Assembly: GCA_963965975.1 (NCBI GenBank)
Contig: OZ014425.1
Location: forward strand, 4,601,501-4,665,500
DNA length: 64,000 bases
Direction: 5' to 3'
From: Xestospongia bergquistia
Taxonomy: Eukaryota; Porifera; Demospongiae; Haplosclerida; Petrosiidae
Shown in pieces: positions 20,467-44,231 of this stretch (position 1 is its first letter; each line of letters begins with the position of its first letter). Both the position numbers and the translations under genes were made by a program. The notes under the pieces are model-generated. The model ran no database searches. It was not told the origin of the DNA and saw nothing but the letters and a program-made list of their open reading frames with translations.

Positions 20467-22545
20467 ATGTTGCCTATCTATCTTGCAGTGGCCTATTACT
20501 TGATTTTTACCAGAGTAATTCCAGGACTTTATCAGAAATGGAAAATACACAAAATGCTTCAATCAAAAAGGCGAGTTGTACTTTTCACCAGATATCCTGC
20601 TCCAGGTAAAACAAAGACCCGACTGATGTCCTCATTAGGTTCATTAGGAGCAGCTGCCTTGCAGTTACTAATGGTAAATCATTCATATACAAGAGATACT
20701 GACTTTTTGTTTCATCCCAAAGACTAACCATCTTCTAGATGTCCTTAACAACTCTTGCAAGAAACTAAGCCAACTTTGTATTGAGGTACGCTATCATGGT
20801 AGCACAGCTCCTCAAATGGAACATTGGCTTGGACAAAGAGTGTTAGTATGCAGACCTCAAGTGGGTAGTGACTTAGGATCACGAATGGCTAATACAATTA
20901 CTGAAGCACTAAATGAAGGAGCTAAAACTGTGATAATTGTGAGTGACACAGCAATAATTATCATTAAAATAGGTATGATAGTTTTATCTTTATTATTAGG
21001 TGGGTTCTGATATACCTGGTATTTCAGTTGAGATCGTAGAGGAGGCATTTCAATTACTGGAAGAGCAAAAAGCAGATGTAATTCTTGGACCAGCTGTTGA
21101 CGGAGGATATTATACAGTTGGAGCCTCATATAAGACTAAAGATAATATCAGTAGGCGTGTCACAATGTGTATAATATAATATTATTGTCATTTCGTGATC
21201 TTGTTGTAGATCAGTTTTTTGAAGGCATTGACTGGGGAACAAATAAGGTATTGCAGCAACAAGTTGAAGTTGGAGAGAAACTAGGAATAAAATTAAAATT
21301 ATTATCAACCAAATTAAATGATGTGGTAAGATCATTCATCCATCCATTCATTCATTTGTCCGTTCTTTCTCATAGGATATTGAAGATGATCTTCCTGTTG
21401 TTGAGAAATACCTTGGCATTACCAAAAATGACATACTCAAACCTCATTGGTCAATTATTATACCTATTTTAAATGAAGCTCGCAATCTTGATAAAGTGAT
21501 CAGAACATTGATTGAGGTAGGCCATCAACTAATAGAGGATATATACCAGCAGTTAGAGTAACTGTACAATAGCTCATTAATTAATACATTAATATAATTT
21601 ATTTTATGCTATAGAATGCTGATTCTCCTGAAAGACTGGAAATAGTCATAGCAGATGGTCAATCTGAGGACAAACCTGAAGAGGTAATACAAAGTTTGCA
21701 GAAAGAGTTCAAATCAACAGGAGTTGATATAAATATAATTACATGTACTAAAAGAGGTAAATTAATTTTTATATTATATAGTCGGGTTCATACTGGTTGC
21801 CCTAGGAAGAGGAGATCAACTCAATGAAGGAGCTGCAGTTAGTAGACACAAATTGATGATGTTTCTTCACGCTGATAGTCAACTGCCATCTCATTATGAC
21901 ACAATGGCATGGCATACTCTTGTAAAACCAGGTATAGCAGCTGGTGCTTTCCAATTTGGTTTGGATGTTGTACACGTGGAAGAGAAAAGGTTGAATACAA
22001 CATTAGATCCACTGAGTAGATCTCTCTCTTAACAGGAAACAAATATCATGGTGGTTTCTGCAACAAATGAGACTATTGGAGTGGGGTACTCGTAAACGCT
22101 CATTAAAAATGGGTTAGTATTTCAACAACGTAGCTAGCAGATTTATAATTTCTCTAGAATTACCCTATGGTGATCAGGGATTGTTTTTATGGAGAACTAC
22201 ATTTGATAAGGTTGGAGGTTATCCTCCTTATAGATTAATGGAAGATTATGAAATGGTTAGGTTTATTTGTGCAACTTCAAGCTATTGCTATTTACAAAAT
22301 TTTGCTAGATAACCAAACTCAAAAAAGAAGGCCGTATAGGTCATGTCACTGGACCACCACTTCTTACTTCAGCTAGACGTTGGCAAAAACATGGCTACAT
22401 GAAAGTAAGTAAATGAAAACACAACAAGTAGTAAATACATTTCTCTCTCTCTCTTTAGATCACGGGTATAAATACTTTTATTATTACAGCATACAAATGT
22501 GGTATTCATCCTAACACACTAGCAAGATGGTACTATGGACAATAG
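20467..22545 (+). CDS. Membrane-anchored fusion of two glycosyltransferase-type domains (DUF2064 plus family-2-like)
   Basis: The first ATG gives an N-terminal hydrophobic anchor (MLPIYLAVAYYLIFTRVIPG) followed by KWKIHK. Domain 1 has the marks of the bacterial DUF2064 'transferase 1, rSAM/selenodomain-associated' family: VVLFTRYPAPGKTKTRL, EVRYHGS, GSDLGSRM, VGSDIPG, LGPAVDGGYYTVG and FEGIDWGTNKV. Domain 2 begins HWSIIIPILNEARNLDKVI and has IVIADGQSED, FLHADSQLP, LPYGDQGLF and RLMEDYEM, as in the 'transferase 2' family (glycosyltransferase family 2 fold). In bacteria the two are usually separate neighbouring genes; family names are from memory. Donor sugar and acceptor are unknown; bacterial context suggests seleno- or arseno-compound glycosylation, which is inference. 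Exon 2 starts at 20723 (acceptor CCCAAAG), the only nearby acceptor I found that keeps the frame. The protein ends ARWYYGQ. Confidence 0.88.
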
Positions 22546-22605
22546 TTGTGTAATGGTACTATGGACAATAGTTGTGTGATGGTACTATGGACAATAGTTG
22601 TGTGA
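22528..22605 (+). repeat. 26-bp tandem repeat, three units, overlapping the stop codon
   Basis: Units 22528-22553, 22554-22579 and 22580-22605 share TGGTACTATGGACAATAG plus TTGTGTRA. The first unit contains the last codons and the stop of the transferase gene; the other two are noncoding copies. Confidence 0.95.
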
Positions 22606-22777
22606 TGTTAAAATTTTTTAGTTTAGTTGTAATTTTTATAAAGGTATCTACAATATATTGTTTCAAATATTTTTGTCATCTGTTATTGGGAAGAATATGT
22701 ACATTATGTTTATATGTGTGTGAAGTACAGTAAGTAAGAGGTAAACCAGTGGGTGTGGTCAATATGAGTACAACCTT

Positions 22778-26883: not shown

Positions 26884-28053
26884 ATGGACTTAGAGAACTA
26901 TGCTGATCACCATAACAAAACTATGACATGGTGTACTGATCTGTCTGCTAATACAGGCAAAATATTCTGTGTACTAATTCAGACATATACTATTAAGTCA
27001 TCAAAGTAAGTATATCAATTTAATAATACTATATTACATTTTCTCCTATAGTGTACGAGTCTATGACCTAATTATTGTTCTTCCAAGTATCCTATTCCTC
27101 TTGTTCCTGCTGATGAAAGTAGTGCCTACTTGGAAAAAACTTAGGTTGAGTTGGCCTCTATTTATCATTCTTTATTGTTTGGTGAGTAAAGAATCATTAA
27201 GAATAGTACCTATTAGTTTACTATATATGTCATTCACTTATTAAGTTGTCATCTCCATTCAATAAAGAAGACATTGTTGATTTAACATAACATGTATTAC
27301 GAGTACCTTTTCAGAATAATAAAAGCTGTTTTTTTAAGAAACTACCTTTTGAATCCTTTGATTCCCTATATATATATAGTCTATACTGTGATATAATACA
27401 CTCATATAGTATCACAAGTATACTCTATTACATGTGTCAGTAGTACATAAGAGTAAGTGGTTGTTACAAGAGAGTTTGTATAAACAGTTTTGACCAATAA
27501 CTATTAGATCATATATTCTCATGATTTCTGATTTTGTGTTAACAGACTATTTATGGGAATTTTGTTAACTAGTTACAAATAACATTAAAATGAGTTTAAA
27601 GGAGCCAATTTCAGTTTTCCACGATATTCATTTGATAATAGTGTGTTTATTATATATCTCTATTCAGATTATTATATATAATATACTATATATAATATAT
27701 TATATTATATAATATACTATATATATATAATATATTATATATATATATTATAATATATATATTATAATATATATTATATATATTATTATATTATATTCAG
27801 ATTGTTCTTATACCTGTTGTCTGTTGTATTCGAGGAATATTTGCAATGGCTCTAGGACATCAACATCTTTCTGCTAAGGTATACAACATAATATGTCATT
27901 GCTTTGTCAGAGTAAAAAGTAATTCATTCGTTCTTCACTAGATTACACATTATATCTTAAGAGGAACTATACTTACCACAGAGATATCAGTTGTCGTCTT
28001 TGGATTAGCTATCAGTGAGTCATACATGTTACATGTACATTGTTATATATATA

Positions 28054-28095
<42 letters not shown>

Positions 28096-31000
28096 ATTAG
28101 TCACGCCCACTAATCTCACGAGTACATTACAAATACTATTGTTAATAGTGCTACAATTGGTAATCATAGTCACGTGTATTTAGAGGTGATAATATGTTTT
28201 CATAAAGCAACATTACTGTCATAATAAGCTAATATTATACCAAAATAACATACCAATTGATTTTAAGCACAAATTTAATAAAGAATATAATATTATTTAG
28301 TTCCTATAAAAGCTAATGAGACAAGCGTTGATATAATGTATCAATAAACAATGGTGACATAACCTCTTCAAGTGTAAAATAATAACTAGCTAGATATCCC
28401 TTAACAATATTTACTAGTCGAGGTGGTTGAGGTTTGATTTTCATATTAACTAACTGTACTAATAACTCTGCATCTTCTCTTAACACTTCTGGTACATACC
28501 ATGGAAGACAGGTGAGGTAATCTGTTAGCTCTTCTTTCTCTATTATGTCTTTGTAATCCTCTGATAAAGACATGTTTTGAAGACTAAATATTCCAGCTCG
28601 TACACTAGTTAGATACAAATCTTTTAACAATTGGTTTTGATTGGCTAATAAACTGCTGCTATGCTTCTCATAACAAAAATAAACCAGACGGACAAATGGT
28701 TTGATAGTTGACCAAAAATACGTGGCCTTTTCCTCTGCCTCGTGTACCTGCTCGTATGTTGTGTTACAAAGAAATCTGTGCATGAATGAGACAATATCAG
28801 GTATAAATTGTTGAAATTCTTCCTTTGAAACACAATTTGAAGAGCCAGTACTTACCAGAGCAAAGAAAAGTGTAGTGAAATACCTAGTAAAGAAATATAA
28901 ATTGTCTATGAAAGTTATACACAAGAAGTATAGCAGCTGGTACATTATAATATTACTTACTTTAAAATGGTTATGTCTATTGCTTGTACTCTCTGCCTAC
29001 TTAAAGAGGGCATATATTCTTGTGAAAATTTCTTACATGCAGCTAATATTCCATGAACAATAGGAGGCCTGGTTAACTGCAAATGAGTATCAGGTGAATA
29101 GCTCAAGCAGAGAAAGGTAGAGATAACAATTTGAGCACAGAATACTGAATATGACGGAGACAACATGGCTGATGTCATTTGATCAATTATCATTGGAGTA
29201 TTGACAATTTCTAGTCTACATTCACTTAACTCAGCTAGGCTAGTGGAAACAGAGTGATATATAAGTTAAAAGTAAAGTAAAACCCATAAATAAAGTCATA
29301 TCTCTTACTTTGTTATTACACCCATTCCTTTAAACATAGTTTCACCAAGTATGAGATTTTGATTCTCAGTAGTAACATGATTTGCTACACGTTGATTGGT
29401 TGGAGCTTGTATTTTCATGTATGGAAAAGCGGATGCTCGAAGTAAGGACTTGCTCAGTTGTTTTATGAGCATAGAATATCGGAATAAGAGGCAACGAATG
29501 CCGATAGTTGAAGAGAGATCCCATATCACTCTTAATACAGAATGCTCTAATAATTGCATTTCAATGATGTGTTTTTCCCAGGGGATTTCCGTTAAAAGTT
29601 GATGAAGGTGTAATGTTATATCTATGCCTTTGTTATGTACAAAGTAAAGCCGATTCACTTTCGCAACCTGAGATGTTACTGGAGTAAAATATTTCACTAT
29701 TAAACTTTCTATTAGTGCAGGATTTAGGCAACTTATAAGCTGGTTTTCAGTTGAGGGAGTGAGTGTGTCTTTAATCTCCTCAGAAGATGTTTCTAATACT
29801 TTGATCATAGCTTCCATTGAATCTAAGATGGCTTGTATTTCATGTAAGTTTCCTTGGGTAGTAAAATTGACTGTTAATATGTCACCATCTCTTAAGTGAA
29901 GCTGATTAAAAGACTGTTTGTCACTGATTTCTAAGGATTGTAAACTTAGTTTCTGAAGACAAACTGGAATTTGGAATTCTTGTTGTATAAATAACTTAAC
30001 ATCAAGTCCTGTTTTAGGATATTGTGATAATGTGACTGTCTTCTCTTTTGGTTTAGTCTCTGTAACAACTGAAGGTTGTAGTTTGATGGTAAGTGTTATT
30101 GGATCTGTCTCTTCTTCCATTGCTTCCTTGTCTTCACTCTTTCTCTCCTCACTCTCAATTGGTGATTCATTTTCTTTCTGTCTTTCTTTACTTACAACAT
30201 CATCTTTCTTTAATTGACTACTGTCTTCTTTTTCATGGTTGTCATTATCTTTACCAAGTTGCTTGTTTCCCATTATACTGACATGGCAAATTGTGACCAC
30301 GCCCACGAGTGTTAATAATTATTAATTTTTTAATCTGTACTAGAATAACAAAGGGTTAAAAATATTTAATACATAGTTTTAAAAAAATGATATATCTCAT
30401 TGTGACAAACGTTGATATAATGTATCAGTAAACAATGGTGACATAACCTCTTCAAGTGTAAAGCAATAACTAGCTAGATATCCCTTAACAATATTTACTA
30501 GTTTAGGTGGTTGAAGTTTGATTTTCATATTAACTAACTGTACTAATAACTCTGCATCTTCTCTTAACACTTCTGGTACATACCATGGAAGACAGGTGAG
30601 GTAATCTGTTAGCTCTTCTTTCTCAATTATATCTTTAAAGTCATCTGATAAACACATACTTTGAAGACTAAATATTCCTGCTTGTACGCTACTTAGATAC
30701 AAATCTTTTAACACTTGGTTTTGTTGAACTGCTAAACTGTTGATGTGCTTGTTGTAATGAAAGTAAACTAGATTAACAAATGGTTTCATTGTAGACCAAA
30801 AATAAGTTGCTTCTTCTTCTGCACTATGTACTTCATTATAAGTTGTACTACATAGAAATGTTTGCATGATGAAAACAATGTCAGGTAGAAATTGTTGACA
30901 TTCTTCATTTGTTATACAATTCAAAGAACTTGTACTTACCAAAGCAAAGAAAAGTGTTGTGAAATGCCTAATAAACAGAAGGGGTATTGTTAAGTAATCA

Positions 31001-34000
31001 TTAAAGTAAATACTATATCATAACTTGAGTGAACAATTAACTTACATTAAAATTCTTTTTCCCAATATTTGTATATTACAATCTTGTAAAAAGTTCTTAC
31101 ATGCTGCTAAAACTCCATGAATGATTGGGGGTCTGGTTAGCTGTATGTGAGTGTCACATGAATAGCTCAAAGCGAGGAATGTACCAATAATAATTTGAAC
31201 ACCATAAATGTTGAAAGTTGGACACAACATGGCTGACACCATTTGTTCAATTATGTATGGAGTATTGACTATTTCTAACTGATGTTCACTTAATTCAGCT
31301 AAACTAGAAGGGAGAGAGAAATGTATAGAAAATCTTTAAATATTAAATAAACTAAATACTGCTTTTCCACATGGCACACATAACATGTTAAGTAATCCTA
31401 AGATTGTTTTTTGTCCTCATGTTATACATATACACTATGTTTGTTGCATGTGACCTTTGAGAGCAACAAATGAATGAAATTAACTAGTATAAAGTAAATA
31501 ACCACTGATACACATAGTAACATAAAAATTATAACTGCTATAGATTTTGGAATTAGACATGACTGATCAAGCAATCCGAGTTTGTAATTTAAGAAAACAC
31601 TTGATCAGTTCCAGCCATATAGTTCTGTCAACTTAACTCTCATATCTTTAAACTTAGTGATAATATAGTTCCTTATTGTTACAACATTACTATTAAAATT
31701 ATCTTGGAATGATTTTATATTATTATATTAATTATTTTTCTTTCATTTACTTTAATATTATTGCCATTCCTTTAAACATAGTTGCCCCTAGTATGACATT
31801 TTGAGTATCTTGATTGGCATGACTTGCTGCACGTTGATTAGGCAGAGCTTCAATTCTCTTATATGGTAATATAGGTCTTCGAAGTATGGACTTGCTCAGT
31901 TGTTTTAAGATTGTGGGATGTTGGAATAAGAGCCTGACAATGCCCATTTTTGCAGAGAGATAACAGAGTGTTTTTAATAACTTTTCTTCCATAAATTGCA
32001 TTTCGATGATGTGTTTTTCCCAGGGGATTTCTGTTAGAAGTTGATGAAGGTGTAATGTTATATCTATGCCTTTGTTGTGTACAAAGTAAAGCCAATTCAC
32101 TTTCGCAACCTGAGACCTTACTGGAGTAAAATATTTCATTATTAAACTTTCTATCAGTGCAGGCTTTAAGCAACTTATAAGCTGGTTTTCAGTTGAGGGA
32201 GTAAGTGTGTCTTTAATCTCCTCTGAAGATGTTTCTAACACTTTGATCATAGCTTCCATTGAATCTAAGATGGCTTGTATTTCATGTAAGTTTCCTTGGG
32301 TAGTAAAATTGACTGTTAATATGTCACCATCTCTTAAGTGAAGCTGATTAAAAGACTGTTTGTCACTGATTTCTAAGGATTGTAAACTTAGTGTCTGAAG
32401 ACAAACTGGAATTTGGAATTCTTGTTGTATAAATAACTTAGCATCAAGTCCTGTTTTAGGATATTGTGATAATGTGACTGTCTTCTCTTTTGGTTTAGTC
32501 TCTGTAACAACTGAAGGTTGTAGTTTGATGGTAAGTGTTATTGGATCTATCTCTTCTTCCATTACTTCCTTGTCTTCACTCTTCATCTCCTCACTACCAG
32601 GTGATGATTCATTGTCTTTCTGTCTTTCTTTACTTACAACATCATCTTTCTTTACTTGACTACTGTCTTCTTTTTCCTGGTCATCATTGTCACTATCTTT
32701 ATCTAGTTGCTTATTATCCATTATGCTGACATGGCAAGTTGTGACGACCACGCCCATTTGAGTTAATAATTATTTTAAAGGAGTCATTCCCAGAATGTCT
32801 AATCCCAAAATGTCTAATCCCATAATGTCTAATCCCATAATGTCTAATCCCATAATGTCTAAAGGTGATAACTGAGGTGTTAATATAACAGAGTATTTCA
32901 AGAGTTCTTTTTGCAACAAGAAGGTGATGCTGACAAGATCCTTATTTTTGCAGCAAATAAGAACCTTCATCTCTTAGCAGAAGCAAACTCTATTTATGTG
33001 GATGGTACTTTTGAGGTTTGTCCAAGGCTTTTCTTCCAAGTATTCACAAATTGATGCTTTTATTCAAGGCCAACAGTTTCCTCTTGTGTATGGTTTACTA
33101 CCTGGGAAGTCAAGAGACGTATATAATCGATTTTTTATGTGTATAAAAGAAGAAGCTTTGAAATGTGATCTTCGCATCTCTCCTGCTGAGATCATGTCTG
33201 ATTTTGAGCTTCCTTTAGTGCAATCACTTGAACTTCAATTTCCCAGTGCTTGTATTCATGGCTGCTACTTTCATTTTACGCAGTGTCTGTGGAGAAAAGT
33301 ACAGAGTCTTGGACTAGTGGAAGAGTACAAAGAAGATGGCTCTATTAAGCAATTTATACAAAAGAGTGCAGCCATTGCTTTTGTGCCATCCAATTTTGTT
33401 CGAGTTGCTTGGGATGGATTAAAAACTGAAATACCAGATGATGACAAGATGAACTACTCAGATTATTTCGACCAAAACTGGATGAATGGTCAGTTTAAAC
33501 TACGTATGTGGAACTACTTTGCTCACAGTGGCCCAAGAACCAATAATCATTTAGAAGGATGGCACAATAGGTTAAAAAGAATAGCGAGAAAGGCACACCC
33601 TAACTTTTATGAAGTGCTTGAACTCTTTCCAAAAGAACAAGCAGCTACTGAAGTCACTATTTTACAGCTACAAGCGGGAGGATTGCACAAAGCTAAAAAA
33701 CGAAAGGTAATTCAAAGAGAAGAGAAGATGAACTTACTATGGGAATAGAGGCATTGAATCATACATTTCTGCAATTAGACACTGTGTTGTTTCATTTGAT
33801 TTTTAAATATAGCTTTTCAGATTAAACAATCAATTCATTAACACCTCAGTTATCACCTTTAGACATTATGGGATTAGATATTCTAGGATTAGACATTCTG
33901 GGATTAGACATTTTGGGATTAGACATTCTGGGACGTTTCCTTTTAAAAGTAATCTGTATTAGAATAACAAAAAGGTTTAAAATGTAAAATTTAATACATA

Positions 34001-36373
34001 GTTTTAAAAAAATGACACTCCTCATTGAGACAAAAATTGATATAATGTATCAGTAAACAATGGTGACATAACCTCTTCAAGTGTAAAACAATAACTAGCT
34101 AGATATCCCTTAACAATATTTACTAGTTTAGGTGGTTGAAGTTTGATTTTCATATTAACTAACTGTACTAATAACTCTGCATCTTCTCTTAACACTTCTG
34201 GTACATACCATGGAAGACAGGTGAGGTAATCTGTTAGCTCTTCTTTCTCAATTATATCTTTAAAGTCATCTGATAAACACATACTTTGAAGACTAAATAT
34301 TCCAGCTCGTATGCTAGTTAGATATAAATCTTTTAACACTTGGTTTTGTTGAACTGCTAAACTGTTGATGTGCTTGTTGTAATGAAAGTAAACTAGATTA
34401 ACAAATGGTTTCATTGTAGACCAAAAATACATTGCTTCTTCTTCTCCATTATGTACTTCATTATAAGTTGTACTACATAGAAATGTTTGCATGATGAAAA
34501 CAATGTCAGGTAGAAATTGTTGACATTCTTTATTTGTTATACAATTCAAAGAACTTGTACTTACCAAAGCAAAGAAAAGTGTTGTGAAATGCCTAATAAA
34601 CAGAAGGGATATTGTTAAGTAATCATTAAAGTAAATACTATATCATAACTTGAGTGAACAATTAACTTACATTAAAATTCTTTTTTCCAATATTTGTATA
34701 TTACAATCTTGTAAAAAGTTCTTACATGCTGCTAAAACTCCATGAATGATTGGGGGTCTGGTTAGCTGTATGTGAGTGTCACATGAATAGCTCAAAGCAA
34801 GGAATGTACCAATAATAATTTGAACACCATAAATGTTGAAAGATGGACACAACATGGCTGACACCATTTGTTCAATTATGTATGGAGTATTGACTATTTC
34901 TAACTGATGTTTATTTAATTCAGCTAAACTAGAAGGGAGAGAGAATTATATAGAAAAATCTTTATATATTAAATAAACTAAATACTGCTTTTCCACCTAG
35001 CACACATAGCATGTCAGGTAATCCTAAGATTGTTCTTTGTCCTCATGTTATACATATACACTATATTTGTTTGTTGCATGTGACCTTTGAGAGCAACAAA
35101 TGAATGAAATTAACTAGTATAATGTAAATAACCACTGATACACATAGTAACATAAAAATTATAACTGCTATAGATTTTGGAATTAGACATGACTGATCAA
35201 GCAATCTGAATTTTGTAATTTAAGAAAACACTTGTGCAGTTCCAGCCATATAACTTTTGTCAACTTAACTCTCATATCTTTAAACTTAGTGATAATAGTT
35301 CCTTATTGTTACAAAATTACTATGATAATTATAATTATTTTTTGTTTCACTTACTTTGATATTACCCCCATTCCTTTAGACATAGTTGCCCCTAGTATGA
35401 AATTTTGAGTATCTTGATTGGCATGACTTGCTGCACGTTGATTATGTGGTGCTTCAATTCTCTTATATGGTAATATAGATCCTCGAAGTATGGACTTGCT
35501 CAGTTGTTTTAAGATTGTGGGATGTTGGAATAGGAGGCTGTCTATGCCAATGTTTGCAGAGAGATCATAGAGTGTTTTTAATAACATTTCTTCCATAAAT
35601 TGCATTTCAATGATGTGTTTTTCCCAGGGGATTTCTGTTAGAAGTTGATGAAGGTGTAATGTTATATCTATGCCTTTGTTGTGTACAAAGTAAAGCCGAT
35701 TCACTTTCGCAAACTCAGACTTTACTGGAGTAAAATGTTTCATTATTAAACTTTCAACCAATGCAGAATTAAGGCAACTTATAAGCTGGTTTTCAGTTGA
35801 GGGAGTAAGTGTGCCTTTAATCTCCTCTGAAGATGTTTTTAACACTTTGATCATAGCTTCCATTGAATCTAAGATGGCTTGTATTTCATGTAAGTTTCCT
35901 TGGGTAGTAAAATTGACTGTTAATATGTCACCATCTCTTAAGTGAAGCTGATTAAAAGACTGTTTGTCACTGATTTCTAAGGATTGCAAACTTAGTTTCT
36001 GAAGACAAACTGGAATTTGGAATTTTTGTTGTATAAATAACTTAGCATCAAGTCCTGTTTTAGGATATTGTGATAATGTGACTGTCTTCTCTTTTGGTTT
36101 AGTCTCTGTAACAACTGAAGGTTGTAGTTTGATAGTAAGTGTTATTGGATCTGTCTCTTCTTCCATTACTTCCTTGTCTTCACTCTTCATCCCCTCACTC
36201 TCAGGTGATGATTCATTTTCTTTCTGTCTCTCTTCACTTACAACATCATCTTTCTTTACTTGACTACTGTCTTCTTTTTCCTGGTCATCATTGTCACTAT
36301 CTTTAGTAAGTTGCTTGTTTCCCATTATGCTGACATGGCAAATTGTGGTGACCACACCCATGACTTGATATTT

Positions 36374-36413
<40 letters not shown>

Positions 36414-39400
36414 GTATGTTTTTAAGAACTATAACAAAGCTAAAAAAAATTGGTGAAAAAACATGGTTTATTCCTTTTAGTGGCTAAATCATTGAGACAA
36501 ACGTTGATATAATGTATCAGTAAACAGTGGTGACATAACCTCTTCAAGTGTAAAATAATAACTAGCTAGATATCCCTTAACAATATTTACTAGTCGAGGT
36601 GGTTGAGGTTTGATTTTCGTATTAACTAACTGTACTAATAACTCTGCATCTTCCCTTAACACTTCTGGTACATACCATGGAAGACAGGTGAGGTAATCTG
36701 TTAGCTCTTCACTTACTAGTACATCTTTACAATCATCAGATAGGCACATATTTCGAAGACTAAATATTCCAGCTCGAACACTAGTTAGATACAAATCTTT
36801 TAGTAACTGGATTTGTTGAACTGCTAAACTATTGATGTCCTTGTTGTAATGAAAATAAATTAGACGTACAAATGGTTTCATAGTACACCAGCACCAATGA
36901 TATTCAGCTTGTTCCTCTGCCTCATGTACTTGTTGGTATGTTGTTCTATGGATAAATTTATTCATAAAGGAGATAATCTCAGGTAGAAATTGTTGAAATT
37001 CCTCTCTTGCAACACAATTTGAAGGACTTGTACTTATCAAAGAGAAGAACAGCATTGTAAAATGTCTATTAGGAAAAAAATAATATAATATATTAATATT
37101 GTATGACCAGATTGCATTGTACAGCTTACTTTAAAATAATTATATTGGCTGTTTGTACTCTCTGCCGACTTAGAGAAGGCATATATTCTTGTGAAAACTT
37201 TTTACACGAAGCCAATATTCCATGAATTATAGGAGGTCTGGTTAACTGCAAATGAGTATCAGATGAAAAGCTCAAACAAAGAAAACAACCAATAACAATT
37301 TGAGCACAGAGAATGGTATAAGATGGAGACAACATGGCTGATGTCATTTGTTCAATCAATAATGGTGTGTTGACTATTTCTAGTTGACGATCACTCAACT
37401 CAGCAAAACTAATGGGAATAAAGTTAAATTAAAGGTATATAGTAGAATATTGTTTGTTAATATATACTTTGGTATACTTAGTTGCTTACTTTGTAATCAC
37501 ACCCATTGCTTTAAATATAATTTCACCGACAATCAGATTTTGATTATTAGGATAAAGTACTGCATGTTGATTGGGTGGAGCTTCGATTCTCTTGTATGGA
37601 AGTATGCGTGCTCGCAATAAGGATTTGCTCAGTTGTATTATGGCTGTGGGATGTTGGAACAGGAGACAACGGATGCCAGTAATTGAAGAGAGAACCCAGA
37701 CCACTCCCAGCACGGAACTTTCTAGTATTTGCATTTCAATGATATGTTTTTCAAATGGTATTTTTGTTAGAAGTTGATGAAGGTGTAATGTTAACTCTAT
37801 GCCTTTGTTATGTACAAAGAAAAGCTGATTCACATTTGTAATCTCAGATGTTTTTGGAGTAAAATAGTGAATTAAATGTTCAACCAGAGCAGCATCTAGA
37901 CAATTTGTAAGCTGTTTTTCAGTTGAAGGAGTGAGTGTGCCTTTAATCTCCTCTGAAGATGTTTCTAACACTTTGATCATAGCTTTCATTGAATCTAAGA
38001 TGGCTTGTATTTCATGTAAGTTTCCTTGGGTAGTAAAATTGACTGTTAATATGTCACCATCTCTTAAGTGAAGCTGATTAAAAGACTGTTTGTCACTGAT
38101 TTCTAAGGATTGTAAACTTAGTGTCTGAAGACAAACTGGAATTTGGAATTCTTGTTGTATAAATAACTTAGCATCAAGTCCTGTTTTAGGATATTGTGAT
38201 AATGTGACTGTCTTCTCTTTTGGTTTAGTCTCTGTAACAACTGAAGGTTGTAGTTTGATGGTAAGTGTTATTAGATTTGTTTCTACTTCCATTGGTTCCT
38301 TGTCTTCACTCTTCATCTCCTCGCTCTCAGGTGATGATTCATTGTCTTTCTGATCTTCCACTTTGTACTCTTGACTACTGTCTTCTACATTCTGGTCATC
38401 TTTACCAAGTTGCTGATTACCCATTTCATTGATATATGATTCGTTGACCACACCCATTATTGTTAAATCAACATTGACTAACAACAATAATAATACAGAA
38501 TGTATTTGTAAAAAAAGCACATCATAAAATTAAGATTTAATTTAGGTAATATTTGGTGAATTTAAAGATACCATTATAAGTGAGTCATTGAGACAAACAT
38601 TGATATAATGTATCAATAAACAATGGTGACATAACCTCTTTAAGTGTAAAATAATAACTAGCTAGATATCCCTTAACAATATTTTCTAGTTTAGGTGGTT
38701 GAGGTTTGATTTTCATATTAACTAACTGTACTAATAACTCTGCATCTTCTCTTAACACTTCTGGTACATACCATGGAAGACAGGTGAGGTAATCTGTTAG
38801 CTCTTCTTTCTCTATTATGTCTTTAAAATCATCTGATAAACACGTACTTTGAAGGCTAAATAATCCAGTTCGTACACTACTTAGATACAAATCTTTTAGC
38901 AATTGATTTTCCATAGCTGGTAAACTATTTCTATCCTTATAATGAGAGTAAACTAAATTAACAAAAGGCTTCATTGTATACCAATAATAATTAGCCTGTT
39001 TTTCTGCCTCGTGTATCTCTTCATATGTCGTGTAAAGAAGTAAATTGTCAATTAAAGAGGAGATCTCAGGTAGAAATAATTGAAATTCCTCTTTTGCAAC
39101 ACAATTAGAAGTCCCAGTGCTTACCAAAGCAAAAAAAAGAGATGTGAAATGTCTAATAACAAACAATGCAAACGTCATATTATATTAAAAGTAGTGAATT
39201 GTAACATACTTTAATGCAGTTGTGTGCACAGACTGTACTTGCTGTGAAAATTTCTTATATGAGGCCAATATTCCATGAATTATAGGAGGTCTGGTTAACT
39301 GCAAATGAGTATCAGATGAATAGCTCAAACAAAGAAAACAACCAATAACAATTTGAGCACAGAGAATAGAATAAGATGGAGACAACATGGCTGATGTCAT

Positions 39401-41382
39401 TTGTTCAATCAATAATGGTGTGTTGACTATTTCTAGTTGACGATCACTCAACTCAGCTAGACTAAAGTCGAAGAAAGATTAGATATTAGAAATGAAAGTT
39501 TAAATAATTAGCTTACTAGTACTACTACATTTGGAACATTATATTGATGAGGTATATTCTTATACTTACTTTGCTATTGTTACCATTGCTTTGAACATAG
39601 CTTCACAGAGAATACGACATTGAGTATCTTGATCAGCTTGACTTGCTGCACGTTGATTAGGTTGAACTTCAATTCTCTTGTATGGTAATATAGGTACTCG
39701 AAGTACAGACTTGCTCAATTGTTTTATGATTATGGGATGTTGGAACAGAAGATGACGCACACCCATAGTTGCTGAGAGCTTCCAGGTTACTGCCAGTATA
39801 GAAGATTCTAAAATTTGCATTTCAATGATATGTTTTTCCCATGGTATTTCTATTAGAAGTTGGTGAAGGTGTAATGTTAGTTCTATGCCTTTGTTGAGTA
39901 CAAAGTAACTCTGATTTGCTTTAGTAATCTCGGATGTTTCTGGGAAATAGTGAATTAAACTTTCAATCACCATAGCAGCATCTAGACAATTTGTAAGCTC
40001 TTTTTCAGTTGAGGGAGTAAGTGTGTCTTTAATCTCCTCTGAAGATGTTTCTAATACTTTGATTATAGCTTTCATTGAATCTAAGATGGCTTGTATTTCA
40101 TGTAAGTTTCCTTGGGTAGTAAAATTGACTGTTAATATGTCACCATCTCTTAAGTGAAGCTGATTAAAAGACTGTTTGTCACTGATTTCTAAGGATTGTA
40201 AACTTAGTGTCTGAAGACAAACTGGAATTTGGAATTCTTGTTGTATAAATAACTTAGCATCAAGTCCTGTTTTAGGATATTGTGATAATGTGACTGTCTT
40301 CTCTTTTGGTTTAGTCTCTGTAACAACTGAAGGTTGTAGTTTGATGGTAAGTGTTATTGGATCTGTCTCTTCTTCCATTGCTTCCTTGTCTTCACTCTTT
40401 CTCTTCTCACTCTCAATTGGTGATTCATTGTCTTTCTCACCATCCACTTCCTTTTCTTTATTAGTTGTCATAGCCAAGCTAGGTTGCTCAAAATTTATGC
40501 TGATGGAGCAAATATGTACCACGCCCATGTTGTATCATCAATGTAGCAATAATTTGTGTCACTATAAATAGTCCCTTAGCAATGGCCCTGTTGTGTTCCA
40601 GAGTATGTAAGTGATATAGAGCAATAGAACTTCATGTTTAAATACTTTACAATTATTATCATATCCTAAAATACTCATCATACTTCAAGTTTATGTTAGA
40701 GTAGCACAAACTATAATTGTAATAGAAATATACATAACATCAATGACAAAGTGCTTATTATAAATAAAATAATGTATTTTCATTACATAAATAAGATAAA
40801 AAAAGTATAATTGTTTATATTAATTGTCATAATACAATTCTACCAGTAATTCTGGCACATTGAGTTGTAATACTTTCTCCAATCCACAATAATATCTTGC
40901 TATGACAGCCTTTGTCATGTTAAGTAATGAAGGTGGTTGAAGTTGGACATCAGGAACTTGTTGTATCATATTTACTAGTACCTTAGCTCTTTCATGCAAT
41001 GACCCTGCTTTATGCCAGGGTAGACAAGTGATATAGTCCAATAGACCTTCGTGTTTAAGGACTTCACGATGATTTTCACATCCTAACATGTTCTCTAAAG
41101 CAACTAAAATAGTTAATTGGCTGTTCTCTTGAATTCTTTGTTGTTCTTCTTTGGCAGGGAGTAGCGAGGGAAGGTCAGGTAAGTAAAATAATTTAATGTA
41201 AGGTAAAAATGTTTGCCAGATATACCATTCTTCTTTCTCTGCTTCTCTTAACTCATCAGCATTAGCAGTAATTATAAATTGAGAAATACATGTTCCTACT
41301 GTTTGTAATTGTTCCTGTGAAAAATAATTAGGAGACTCAAGAGCCAGCATAGAAAAGAAAGTAGCTCTGTGGTAACTGTGTA

Positions 41383-41439
<57 letters not shown>

Positions 41440-43934
41440 TTGTTAGTCCGTAGATAGATCATTTAAGTTATTTATAATATATTCAGTAGACAATACTTGA
41501 CTTACCACATCAATAGCCAAGACCGTTCAACATTAGGTTGTCCATCATTAGCAGTAAATTCTACTGACACAAGTCTCTCTGTTGTATCACACTGTATTAA
41601 ATGAGGGTGTGTGGCTGATGTATAGCTAAGTACTAATAACAATATGGCAATCATTTGAACTGTTCTTAAATCAAACATTTTGGACTGAATGACATTCATC
41701 ATTTGATCAATAGCTTCTTTGTTGCTAGCCAATTGTAGGTGTGTCTCTGGTAACTCACATAAACTAAAGTAGAAAAATATAAATATTTTAGGAATAGATA
41801 GCAGTGTGTAATGTTAATGACAGTTAATTGATTGGGTGACATTTTTTTTAGCAGTTCGTTAAATGATAGTCACCACTGTTGTGTGTTAATGTAAATCTAT
41901 TATCAGTATTGTTAACACTATAGCCACAAGTGATAATAAATTAGGTGAAAAAGAAACTAGTTAACTTCTTACTTTGATAAGGTACCCAAGGCAGCTCCAA
42001 TAGTCTCATACAAGACTAAAAGCTGTTGTCGTTCTACAGAACAATATCGATTTATTTCAGTAAACATTTCTGGCTCCACGCGTACTTGTACTAAAGATCT
42101 GACACATTTTTCTAGACCTCCATGTTTTAAAATCTCACGTCGTAAAGGACAGGTTTCTGCCAAGTTCCATAAAGCACACAACAACAGATATTGGACTATT
42201 TGCAATTTCATTGGGAGTTGATGCCACGGTACAGAAAGGAGAAGTGAATATAACTCCATCATTACATCAAGACCATTTTTGTCGATAAAGTACAGCTTGT
42301 TGGCATATTTTTCTGGTTTCATCCAAGGCAAGAACAATTGGAAACCAAGATCAATAATAAACTGTTCTTCTTGAGCAATCATATCTAACAACTGTTGTAC
42401 TTCTAATGAAGGTAATCCTGATGTTTTTTGTGGCACACCATATGTATTGAGTGTGTTGACTAATAGTTTAAACCATCCTATACAGTCATCAACACCAGAA
42501 CATTCTGCCGTGGCAAAATACTTAACTGTAATAGTGTCATAATTACGTAGTCTTAATTTGTTTAATTCAGTGCTTGGGTTAAGTGTAACTGATCCAACTT
42601 GGACTGTTTGCAATGCAGCTGGTATGTGGAGGTCTTTCTCGATTTTTGTCTGGATTTCTCCTATTGTACAAGGAGGAGATGGAAAGGATATTGTTTTGAG
42701 AGGAGAACTACAGGCCTCCTTATCTGATGTACATTCTAACTTGAGAGTATAAACGGTCTCTCCTTGCTGTTGAGTCATAATAACAATTTAGCCAACTTTG
42801 CATAATAACTACTAGTCACGCCCTGGTTGTAGTTATTAATAATAAAAATTAATTAAGCTTAATTAAAAATGCTTTCTTTTCTTTTCCATACATTGCACAC
42901 CACACAGAGCAATACCTGAACTCTCTGTGTAAATTAATAGCTACAATGTTAATAATCGTTGCTGTTTCAATCACCTTTACAGTAACACAGGTACCATGAT
43001 AAACAATGTTTCCCACACTATTGCTTGCCTTTCCAGTTATTAATGGATATTTTAAATGTCTATGAACCATTGGTGTGTAAGAGCCATGATCTCTTTACAC
43101 ATGGAGGAATGATCTTTGTTTTTACAAGCTCAACTCTCTTTGCAATAGTGAGAGACAAATAATAATGAAATCAGTTGGACTGACATATTTTTTTCACAGG
43201 TATACATGACCATCTTTTGTCTTTATGTATTTGAATTATATAAACGTTGGAATCTTCCATGTGAGTGTAATGTTTTATAATATGTCATATCTTTTTATAT
43301 TTATTAGCTAAAAAATCTTTCTATCGATATGCCCTATTTCTATCTATTGTAAACACATTTCAAGCTATTGGTAGCATGTTGTGGTTTTATGGTACAAGAC
43401 ATCAACAAATGGGTCATGTTGGGATATGGTATGTTTGAACAAAGACACTTGACTTTAATGATTATATGACATTATTTTGACATTATTTTTCTAGTTTTAT
43501 AATGCTTACTAGCGATGTTTATTTGATCTCATTTGCCCCTGTCGTTTATTGGATATTCTTAAGTAATTATTTTAGGTGAGTATGCCACATTGCTAAGATA
43601 CTTTGACAAAATTCCTATGCTTATAATATTACTAGGAACCCCCTAGCTATGGGTCCTGGTAACATATAATAGACCCTTTGAGTTTTTAAATTTTTTTTAC
43701 AGAATGACTAAGTCTTTCTCTGGTGATAATTCAAATGTCAATGTCAATGAAGAGGAGGGAAAACCCTCTCGTAATCGTTGGCGGGGTTGGTCTCTTAGAC
43801 CAGCACAATCTGTTGTTGTCCCAATTTATAAACAAACTTATTGTGAAGAGTCATCAAGATTAATTGATAAAAGTACGCCTAGTTCTATTGAGAATTCATA
43901 CAGTAGTATCAATTCTGATGATGTAATGAGTTGA
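26884..43934 (+). CDS. TPRA1: TPRA1-like seven-transmembrane protein, split by a 14.9-kb intron
   Basis: 5' exons (26884-28014) encode MDLENYADHHNKT, then membrane segments such as DLIIVLPSILFLLFLLMKVV, IVLIPVVCCIRGIFAMALGH and TEISVVVFGLAI. The frame stops at a GTGAGT donor after 28014 in phase 1. It resumes at 42908, after a CACACAG acceptor, with a matching phase, giving GLAI-KQYLNSLCKLIATM and LIIVAVSITFTVTQ. Further exons start at 43037 (LLMDILNVYEPL...HGGMIFVFTSS), 43200, about 43308 (SFYRYALFLSIVNTFQAIGS) and 43496 (SDVYLISFAPVVYWIF), then a Ser-rich cytoplasmic tail. These blocks follow the animal TPRA1/GPR175 family in order (ITTVLSLAYSVTQG, SFYVYAGILALLNLLQG). The protein should sit in a membrane; ligand and role are not evident. 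The long intron (28015-42907) contains six minus-strand genes. Confidence 0.85.
27663..27800. repeat. AT-rich simple repeat
   Basis: Alternating TATATA/ATTATA low-complexity DNA within a TPRA1-like intron. A second (AT)n run is at about 28040-28093, just inside the long intron. Confidence 0.85.
28313..30273 (-). CDS. Ubiquitin-like/ARM-like family protein, nested copy A
   Basis: Three exons: 29309-30273, about 28956-29235, and 28313 to about 28885. Exon 1 has an acidic, Lys/Glu-rich start, then a beta-grasp pattern read as a ubiquitin-like domain (ITLTIKLQPS, VKLFIQQEFQIPVCLQKLSL, FNQLHLRDGDILTVNF), then helices resembling armadillo repeats (NKGIDITLHLHQLLTEIPWE, VLRVIWDLSS). Exons 2 and 3 continue helical and end EEVMSPLFIDTLYQRLSH. 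Phases match at both junctions (phase 2). I recognise no named family. The start is set at MGNKQLGKD because the upstream MGVV start of copies B-E is GTG here. It lies inside the TPRA1-like intron on the opposite strand. Confidence 0.7.
30397..32757 (-). CDS. Ubiquitin-like/ARM-like family protein, nested copy B
   Basis: Same three-exon plan as copy A: exon 1 about 31750-32757, exon 2 near 31040-31306, exon 3 30397 to about 30968. The start MGVVVTTCHVSIMDNKQ uses the upper ATG; MDNKQ (ATG at 32721) is the alternative. The ubiquitin-like block is nearly identical to the other copies, and so is the exon 3 end (EELTDYLTCLPWYVPEVLRE). The first intron (about 31,306-31,750) is longer than in copy A and closely matches that of copy C, so B and C are the most recent duplicates. 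A MULE element is inserted just upstream. Confidence 0.7.
32780..33940. mobile_element. MULE-type DNA transposon, 1,161 bp, with about 103-bp terminal inverted repeats
   Basis: Left end 32780-32884 and right end 33838-33940 are inverted copies. Both contain tandem 15-bp units around ATGTCTAATCCC and share the inner stretch AAAGGTGATAACTGAGGTGT. TTTTAAA flanks the element on each side (32773-32779 and 33941-33947), a likely target-site duplication. The flanks match, across the insertion, the uninterrupted spacer between copies A and B (about 30,300-30,390), which serves as an empty site. Inside is a decayed transposase. Confidence 0.85.
32895..33748 (+). pseudogene. MULE transposase remnant, truncated and frameshifted
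   Basis: Catalytic-core signatures are visible: VDGTFEVCPR (first Asp), MSDFELPLV (second Asp), GCYFHFTQCLWRKVQ, and RTNNHLEGWHNRLKR (Glu). The first part is read in one frame from about 32895; a frameshift near 33035-33055 moves the rest to the frame open to 33748. The N-terminal DNA-binding part is missing, because the coding sequence starts almost at the terminal repeat. It is therefore a non-autonomous, internally deleted copy, or one relying on transposase made elsewhere. Confidence 0.8.
34022..36361 (-). CDS. Ubiquitin-like/ARM-like family protein, nested copy C
   Basis: Exon 1 about 35354-36361 (start MGVVTTICHVSIMGNKQLTKD; the lower ATG at 36325 is the alternative), exon 2 about 34667-34931, exon 3 34022 to about 34593. 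The layout matches copy B through exons and introns, with scattered substitutions (for example HNGEEEAMYFWSTMKPFV against HSAEEEATYFWSTMKPFV), which points to a recent duplication. It has the same acidic leader, ubiquitin-like block, ARM-like helices and LCLxWYVPE-type C-terminal block as the others. All three exons are open, so it is probably expressed; the function is unknown. Confidence 0.7.
36489..38457 (-). CDS. Ubiquitin-like/ARM-like family protein, nested copy D
   Basis: Three exons: about 37489-38457, about 37125-37410, and 36489 to about 37063. It starts MGVVNESYINEMGNQQLGK. The acidic leader is shorter, and the helical part of exon 1 differs more from A-C (FTPKTSEITNVNQLFFVHNK, VLGVVWVLSSITGIRCLLF), while the ubiquitin-like block and the C-terminal block are nearly the same as in the other copies. 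Exon 2 reads FAELSDRQLEIVNTPLLIEQ, shared with copy E. Intact in all exons. Confidence 0.7.
38585..40528 (-). CDS. Ubiquitin-like/ARM-like family protein, nested copy E
   Basis: Exon 1 about 39569-40528 (MGVVHICSISINFEQPSLAM), exon 2 about 39207-39463, exon 3 38585 to about 39150. It lacks the MGNKQ start of A, C and D, so the MGVV start is the natural one here. The ubiquitin-like block matches the others; the region after it (ETSEITKANQSYFVLNKGIE, ILAVTWKLSATMGVRHLLF) is closest to D. Exon 2 is shorter than in D at its end (QVQSVHTTALK). It ends EVMSPLFIDTLYQCLSQ. Confidence 0.7.
40573..40690 (-). pseudogene. Relic of an F-like exon 3
   Basis: Plus-strand sequence from about 40573 (GCAATGGCCCTG, then GTGATATAGAGCAATAGA and CATATCCTAAAATACT) follows copy F exon 3 at about 40981-41095 (GCAATGACCCTG, GTGATATAGTCCAATAGA, CACATCCTAACATGTT) with many substitutions and no open frame. 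It marks a dead family member, or a decayed duplicate of F, between E and F. Confidence 0.6.
40820..42778 (-). CDS. Ubiquitin-like/ARM-like family protein, divergent nested copy F
   Basis: Exon 1 about 41971-42778 (MTQQQGETVYTLKLECTSDK), exon 2 about 41510-41766, exon 3 40820 to about 41380. The exon plan and domain order equal those of A-E but the sequence is far more diverged: a ubiquitin-like block (IQTKIEKDLHIPAALQTVQV, LNKLRLRNYDTITVKYF), then clear ARM-type helices (LLCALWNLAETCPLRREIL, KHGGLEKCVRSL) and, in exon 3, LGCENHREVLKHEGLLDYIT. It probably represents the older member from which the A-E expansion split. No acidic leader. The function is unknown. Confidence 0.75.
41379..41439. 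repeat. (TG)n(AG)n microsatellite at an acceptor of copy F
   Basis: On the gene strand this is (CT)n(CA)n ending in ACAG directly before the exon 3 coding sequence of copy F. Confidence 0.9.
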
Positions 43935-44231
43935 AAATTAAAATTACTTGTGCCAACATCACCATGATTAGGTCTAAAAATAAGTTTTTAGTTTTATATA
44001 TATTATATTTTTCTTGTCTATATTGTTCTGTTTTTACAAAATGAGTGTTTTTATGATCATATTCTGCTAACAATGAATTAGAAGAAGTTAATATATCTGC
44101 ACTGTATTTAATAGTGTGTCAATTTGAGAAATACTTATAACATTTTTTTAAAAAAGTAAAACAATAAAAAATTGCTAAAGCACTATAATGTTAGTATTTT
44201 CATTGAAATAAAATTGAATTTGTTTCAATAT
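43935..44231. other. Convergent 3' region, TPRA1-like / VIT-VWA gene
   Basis: AT-rich sequence between two facing stop codons. AATAAA-like motifs occur on both strands (for example near 44163 and 44206). I see no gene or repeat. Confidence 0.5.

Follow-up and report, generated by a model that had tools for sequence, protein, structure and literature searches.

Several antisense genes within one intron are familiar from the human NF1 gene, where EVI2A, EVI2B and OMG lie on the strand opposite to their host, and tandem gene families under gene conversion show conserved alongside variable segments. Nested intronic genes as such are numerous: Hormiphora has 2,357 in 1,654 hosts, Aphrocallistes 2,432 and the Amphimedon annotation 3,358, and several nested genes per host occur (PMC8527503, PMC10282587). 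In Drosophila, 727 of 1,651 nested genes are host-oriented, most of the others being antisense (PMC3890989), and a review describes intron colonisation as probably neutral (PMC3488318). Gene nesting itself is ordinary and common in animals, a point that the initial annotation of the present locus overlooked.

The locus described here lies in a 64,000-nucleotide stretch of the genome of the sponge Xestospongia bergquistia (the window; Table 1). Wnt matches at three loci identify the genome as that of an animal, and the combination of three Wnt genes, compact genome and short introns is suggestive of a demosponge. Like other animal nested genes, which sit as whole genes within a single intron of another gene, its six nested coding regions (28313–42778) lie wholly inside one intron (28015–42907) of a gene encoding a TPRA1-like membrane protein. 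As in NF1, multiple antisense genes share a single intron, but the NF1 intron holds three genes and not a six-member tandem family. The animal nested genes cited above differ from this case, in which six paralogues form a tandem antisense array with mosaic homogenisation. Like converting tandem families, the array shows homogenisation that is local to the cluster; unlike them, the cluster is located within an intron of a host gene, its homogenised parts being found towards both protein ends. The locus is remarkable for how many tandem paralogues share one intron and for their mosaic homogenisation. A wording-dependent search of the titles and abstract openings of open-licence papers returned no tandem array nested in one intron. 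The explanation that we favour as a whole, and in which we have good confidence, is an old antisense array in the host intron that duplicated in place and underwent conversion at two blocks.

Table 1. Positions of the host gene, the nested array and associated elements, numbered from the first letter of the window.
Feature	Position	Strand	Details
Host gene, TPRA1-like membrane protein (PF10160)	26884..43935	+	10 exons, 363 aa
Host intron 4, phase 1	28015..42907	+	14,893 bp; 28313–42778 (97%) is nested array
c1	28313..30273	-	604 aa; exons 30273–29309, 29239–28961, 28883–28313
c2	30397..32721	-	599 aa; exons 32721–31751, 31303–31046, 30967–30397
c3	34022..36325	-	599 aa; exons 36325–35355, 34928–34671, 34592–34022
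c4	36489..38424	-	596 aa; exons 38424–37490, 37408–37130, 37065–36489
c5	38585..40471	-	573 aa; exons 40471–39570, 39461–39210, 39152–38585
c6, most diverged copy	40820..42778	-	539 aa; exons 42778–41973, 41763–41506, 41375–40820
Relic, decayed further copy	40579..40672	-	94 bp, 78% identity to c6 exon 3
Block A in c3	35834..36145	-	homogenised; covers ubiquitin-like domain
Block A elsewhere	c1 30099–29788, c2 32541–32230, c4 38271–37960, c5 40357–40046	-	
Block B in c3	34061..34225	-	homogenised; near C-terminus
Block B elsewhere	c1 28516–28352, c2 30600–30436, c4 36692–36528, c5 38788–38624	-	
MULE-like transposon	32773..33948		1,176 bp, between c2 and c3
GGGYGTGRYY 5' of c6	42814..42823	-	
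GGGYGTGRYY, further copies	38446 (c4), 36350 (c3), 32746 (c2), 30295 (c1)	-	

Splice junctions of host and nested genes were set by eye from the sequence in a frame-keeping manner. The nested genes were thereby modelled as six intact three-exon frames of 539–604 aa with GT-AG borders at all 12 introns and identical intron phases. This agrees with the initial annotation, which had described an antisense array of tandem copies within one host intron, comprising six complete genes, a transposon and a relic. Judging by its match to c6 exon 3, the relic is the trace of another c6-type copy. Upstream in-frame ATGs offer possible extensions of 12 aa in both c2 and c3, 11 aa in c4 and 19 aa in c5. Synonymous divergence (dS) amounts to 0.059 for c2/c3, 0.31–0.38 for the nine other pairs among c1–c5, and 1.37–1.90 for comparisons with c6. 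Should diverged paralogues exist elsewhere in the genome, the family may extend beyond the array. Intron 1 measures 447 bp in c2 (31304–31750) and 426 bp in c3 (34929–35354), while the other copies have 69–209 bp; as both are long and the others short, an insertion there probably predates the c2/c3 duplication.

A point overlooked in the initial annotation is that the five copies c1–c5 are mosaics, homogenised at two blocks, probably by gene conversion. Blocks A (about 310–345 bp) and B (about 165–185 bp) are 96–99% identical in all ten c1–c5 pairs, whereas the coding sequence between them is 75–80% identical in nine pairs and 95% identical in c2/c3. Counted as differences, block A shows 3–9 per 345 columns in each of the ten pairs and block B 1–8 per 185 columns, as opposed to 85–128 per 450–460 for exon 1 outside block A in nine pairs (38 per 470 in c2/c3). 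The same contrast is seen at fourfold sites, counted only in codons that are invariant among the five copies at their first two bases: 2 of 37 vary in block A, 26 of 56 in the middle and none of 21 in block B (29 of 118 overall). The longest invariant run of 32 such sites was reached in 11 of 10,000 permutations, the permutation tests used here assuming exchangeable sites. Per 25-codon stretch, the mean synonymous difference ranges from 0.000 (codons 76–100 and 126–150) to 0.620 (codons 451–475). DNA searches of the genome found block B only in the five array copies and block A at full length only in these copies, together with one 57-bp piece on contig C8. With both blocks at full length confined to the array, exchange seems to be local. 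A run test on the ten pairs detected a c4/c5 tract at codons 331–358 (0 of 2,000 permutations) and a c1/c2 tract at codons 194–205 (3 of 2,000) and was weak in the eight other pairs (35 to 1,408 of 2,000); as it uses polymorphic sites only, it has little bearing on blocks A and B.

The blocks could alternatively stem from strong nucleotide-level selection on a shared regulatory or RNA element, or from a recent duplication after which the middle changed fast, readings that we consider rather improbable. Block B is indeed closer to c6 than the middle is (39–41% versus 24–25% identity to c1–c5), which points to some constraint on this block, and c1–c5 taken alone leave, strictly speaking, room for selection on synonymous sites. 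Block A, however, is no more conserved relative to c6 (22–24%) than the middle, so that it does not represent a slow region of the family. Recent duplication should have left introns and spacers alike, yet these are diverged as much as the middle or more and barely align outside c2/c3, suggesting that the c1–c5 units are old and that their blocks were equalised later. Fast change of the middle is likewise at odds with the mean pN, which lies below pS in 15 of 15 25-codon stretches across codons 176–550 and thus does not point to forced change in that region; pN reaches or exceeds pS only in the block stretches 51–75, 76–100 and 576–600, where both are near zero. Conversion at the two blocks is therefore our preferred reading of the mosaics.

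Contig C8 contains, at about 2170861–2171088, a patchwork of array fragments. A sense piece resembling c1/c5 exon 1 (about 92%) is followed by a reversed stretch of 29 bp that matches c5 exactly, close to where exon 2 ends, and then by a reversed c4 piece (90%) spanning the exon 1/intron 1 border. The arrangement looks like templated filler, copied at the DNA level from several units.

The host gene was read in the initial annotation as leaving its frame at 28014 in phase 1 and re-entering it at 42908 in the matching phase. Our models concur, as the last base of exon 4, at 28014, is the first of a codon and exon 5 starts at 42908, with GT-AG borders at nine of nine introns and ten exons joining into one 363-aa frame. 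The introns measure, in order, 46, 619, 63, 14893, 46, 52, 47, 66 and 127 bp; the contrast drawn earlier between one very long intron and short neighbours accordingly holds for the other eight (46–619 bp), intron 2 exceeding the other small ones, yet still being short. Against PF10160 the joined protein scored 108.8 bits (cut-off 25, E 4.2e-31) over model positions 3–244 of 255. Since exons 1–4 alone cover positions 3–98 and exons 5–10 alone 107–244, the two halves form complementary parts of one membrane protein. A search of the 146 Mb assembly with the host protein gave ten matches, all at the host locus. The PF10160 family search of the same genome returned nothing at E up to 0.001 and missed the host locus itself, probably an effect of exon-by-exon reading; because even the known locus was missed, a diverged second TPRA1-like copy may exist. 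From the frame and the profile we infer a single host gene spliced across the 14.9-kb intron 4, as had been claimed before.

Two separate genes, a truncated left one and a right one with its own start, would turn the array into an intergenic one. The junction is indeed derived from the sequence, and just some 130 bp separate exon 5 from the c6 start. Each gene would, however, encode a partial membrane domain, matching non-overlapping parts of PF10160, the agreement of frame and phase across the gap would have to be fortuitous, and the host protein query found no second locus in the 146 Mb assembly, making this arrangement very unlikely. Least probable of all is a misassembly that put the array into the host gene: tandem copies are hard to assemble and the window comes from one assembly, but it contains no N, the 146 Mb are held in 21 contigs, and a collapse or misjoin becomes less likely with copies that, except for c2/c3, differ by 20–25% between the blocks and are interrupted by the transposon and the relic.

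Under the favoured explanation, intron 4 of the TPRA1-like gene would carry an old tandem array of separate opposite-strand genes, coding for proteins with ubiquitin-like and armadillo-like parts, that grew by duplication in place, probably through unequal exchange, with c6 and the relic representing the most diverged type and c2/c3 the latest pair. Conversion among c1–c5 would keep the ubiquitin-like domain and the C-terminal stretch alike while the middle diverges. The host would be expressed by transcription through the array and subsequent splicing out, while the nested genes would probably be transcribed leftwards, each from its own promoter. A family expanding, decaying and exchanging sequence in a foreign intron would provide a natural test of intron growth without host breakage and of antisense interference, and the two homogenised blocks flanking a diverging middle would illustrate, on a local scale, how conversion shapes a family. 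There is also a slim chance that the host intron serves as an inherent antisense RNA against each of the six nested mRNAs. If so, every host transcript would yield a strand complementary to these mRNAs, a single antisense or small RNA could hit c1–c5 alike through blocks A and B, and host transcription and family would be tied oppositely, leaving the middle of the proteins free to diversify.

Candidate promoters are suggested by the element GGGYGTGRYY, which is found 21–35 bases ahead of the ATG in five of the six nested genes (c1, c2, c3, c4 and c6) and upstream of c5 with one change. The window holds 13 sites compared with 0.55 expected. The narrower pattern GGGYGTGGTC occurs 3,088 times genome-wide versus 141 times for the reversed pattern (about 22-fold) and likely has a general regulatory role in this genome, so that the nested copies may each come with a promoter of their own. 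Two observations weaken this promoter reading: in c2–c5 the element, which directly follows or overlaps the upstream in-frame ATG, could belong to the coding sequence, and eight of the 13 sites are not ahead of a nested start, one being in c4 exon 1, another 3' of c1 and the remaining six beyond the host gene. The site 3' of c1 (28099–28108, minus strand) stands alone near the left end of the intron in the form seen before c6 (GGGCGTGACT) and could be the remnant of a lost additional unit.

A poly(A) signal of the form A[AT]TAAA occurs within 200 bp after the stop in five of six nested genes, a raw count in AT-rich DNA; on the host strand, intron 4 contains 16 AATAAA and 25 ATTAAA. In Drosophila, poly(A) signals in introns are silenced (PMC3890989). 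The initial annotation proposed that the array would make transcription of the host more costly and may lead to interference between the strands. As the signals of the nested genes would lie on the other strand and intronic ones are silenced in Drosophila, one cost to the host may be lower than was implied there.

The nested proteins show a ubiquitin-like fold first, followed by putative armadillo-like helices. Their N-terminal part has the beta-grasp, i.e. the ubiquitin-like superfold rather than the family: in a profile scan covering c3 and c6, PF00240 scored 24.2 bits on c3 (E 2.8e-5), below the ubiquitin family cut-off of 25.4, and gave no match on c6 at E up to 1. The best Foldseek rows were ubiquitin-fold chains, and a PDB sequence search with c6 returned no match at E up to 1. 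Foldseek alignments to ELMO2 and FHOD1 were set aside as long but loose (rmsd 13–18), and the fold obtained for exon 3 was of insufficient quality to serve as a query.

The transposon contains a frame (32978–33748, plus strand) of 256 aa that matches the MULE transposase domain PF10551 with 30.5 bits (cut-off 27.6), and its terminal inverted repeats have 112-nt arms that are 90% complementary. On either side, its flanks carry the repeated 7-bp sequence TTTTAAA; the target-site duplication of MULEs is about 9 bp. Searching the genome with the element gave at least 149 match rows, with the best 40 of 131 candidates scored, and at least 16 rows besides the element itself cover 696–1,034 of its bases at 92–97%. 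We infer a recently active MULE-like family and a late arrival of this member in the c2–c3 spacer.

A search of a phage collection with the intron gave no match, and in Rfam and tRNA scans the window yielded tRNA-like hits only, all outside the array. Elsewhere in the window, at 22529–22606 on the plus strand, the 26-bp unit GGTACTATGGACAATAGTTGTGTGAT is present in three tandem copies with small changes.
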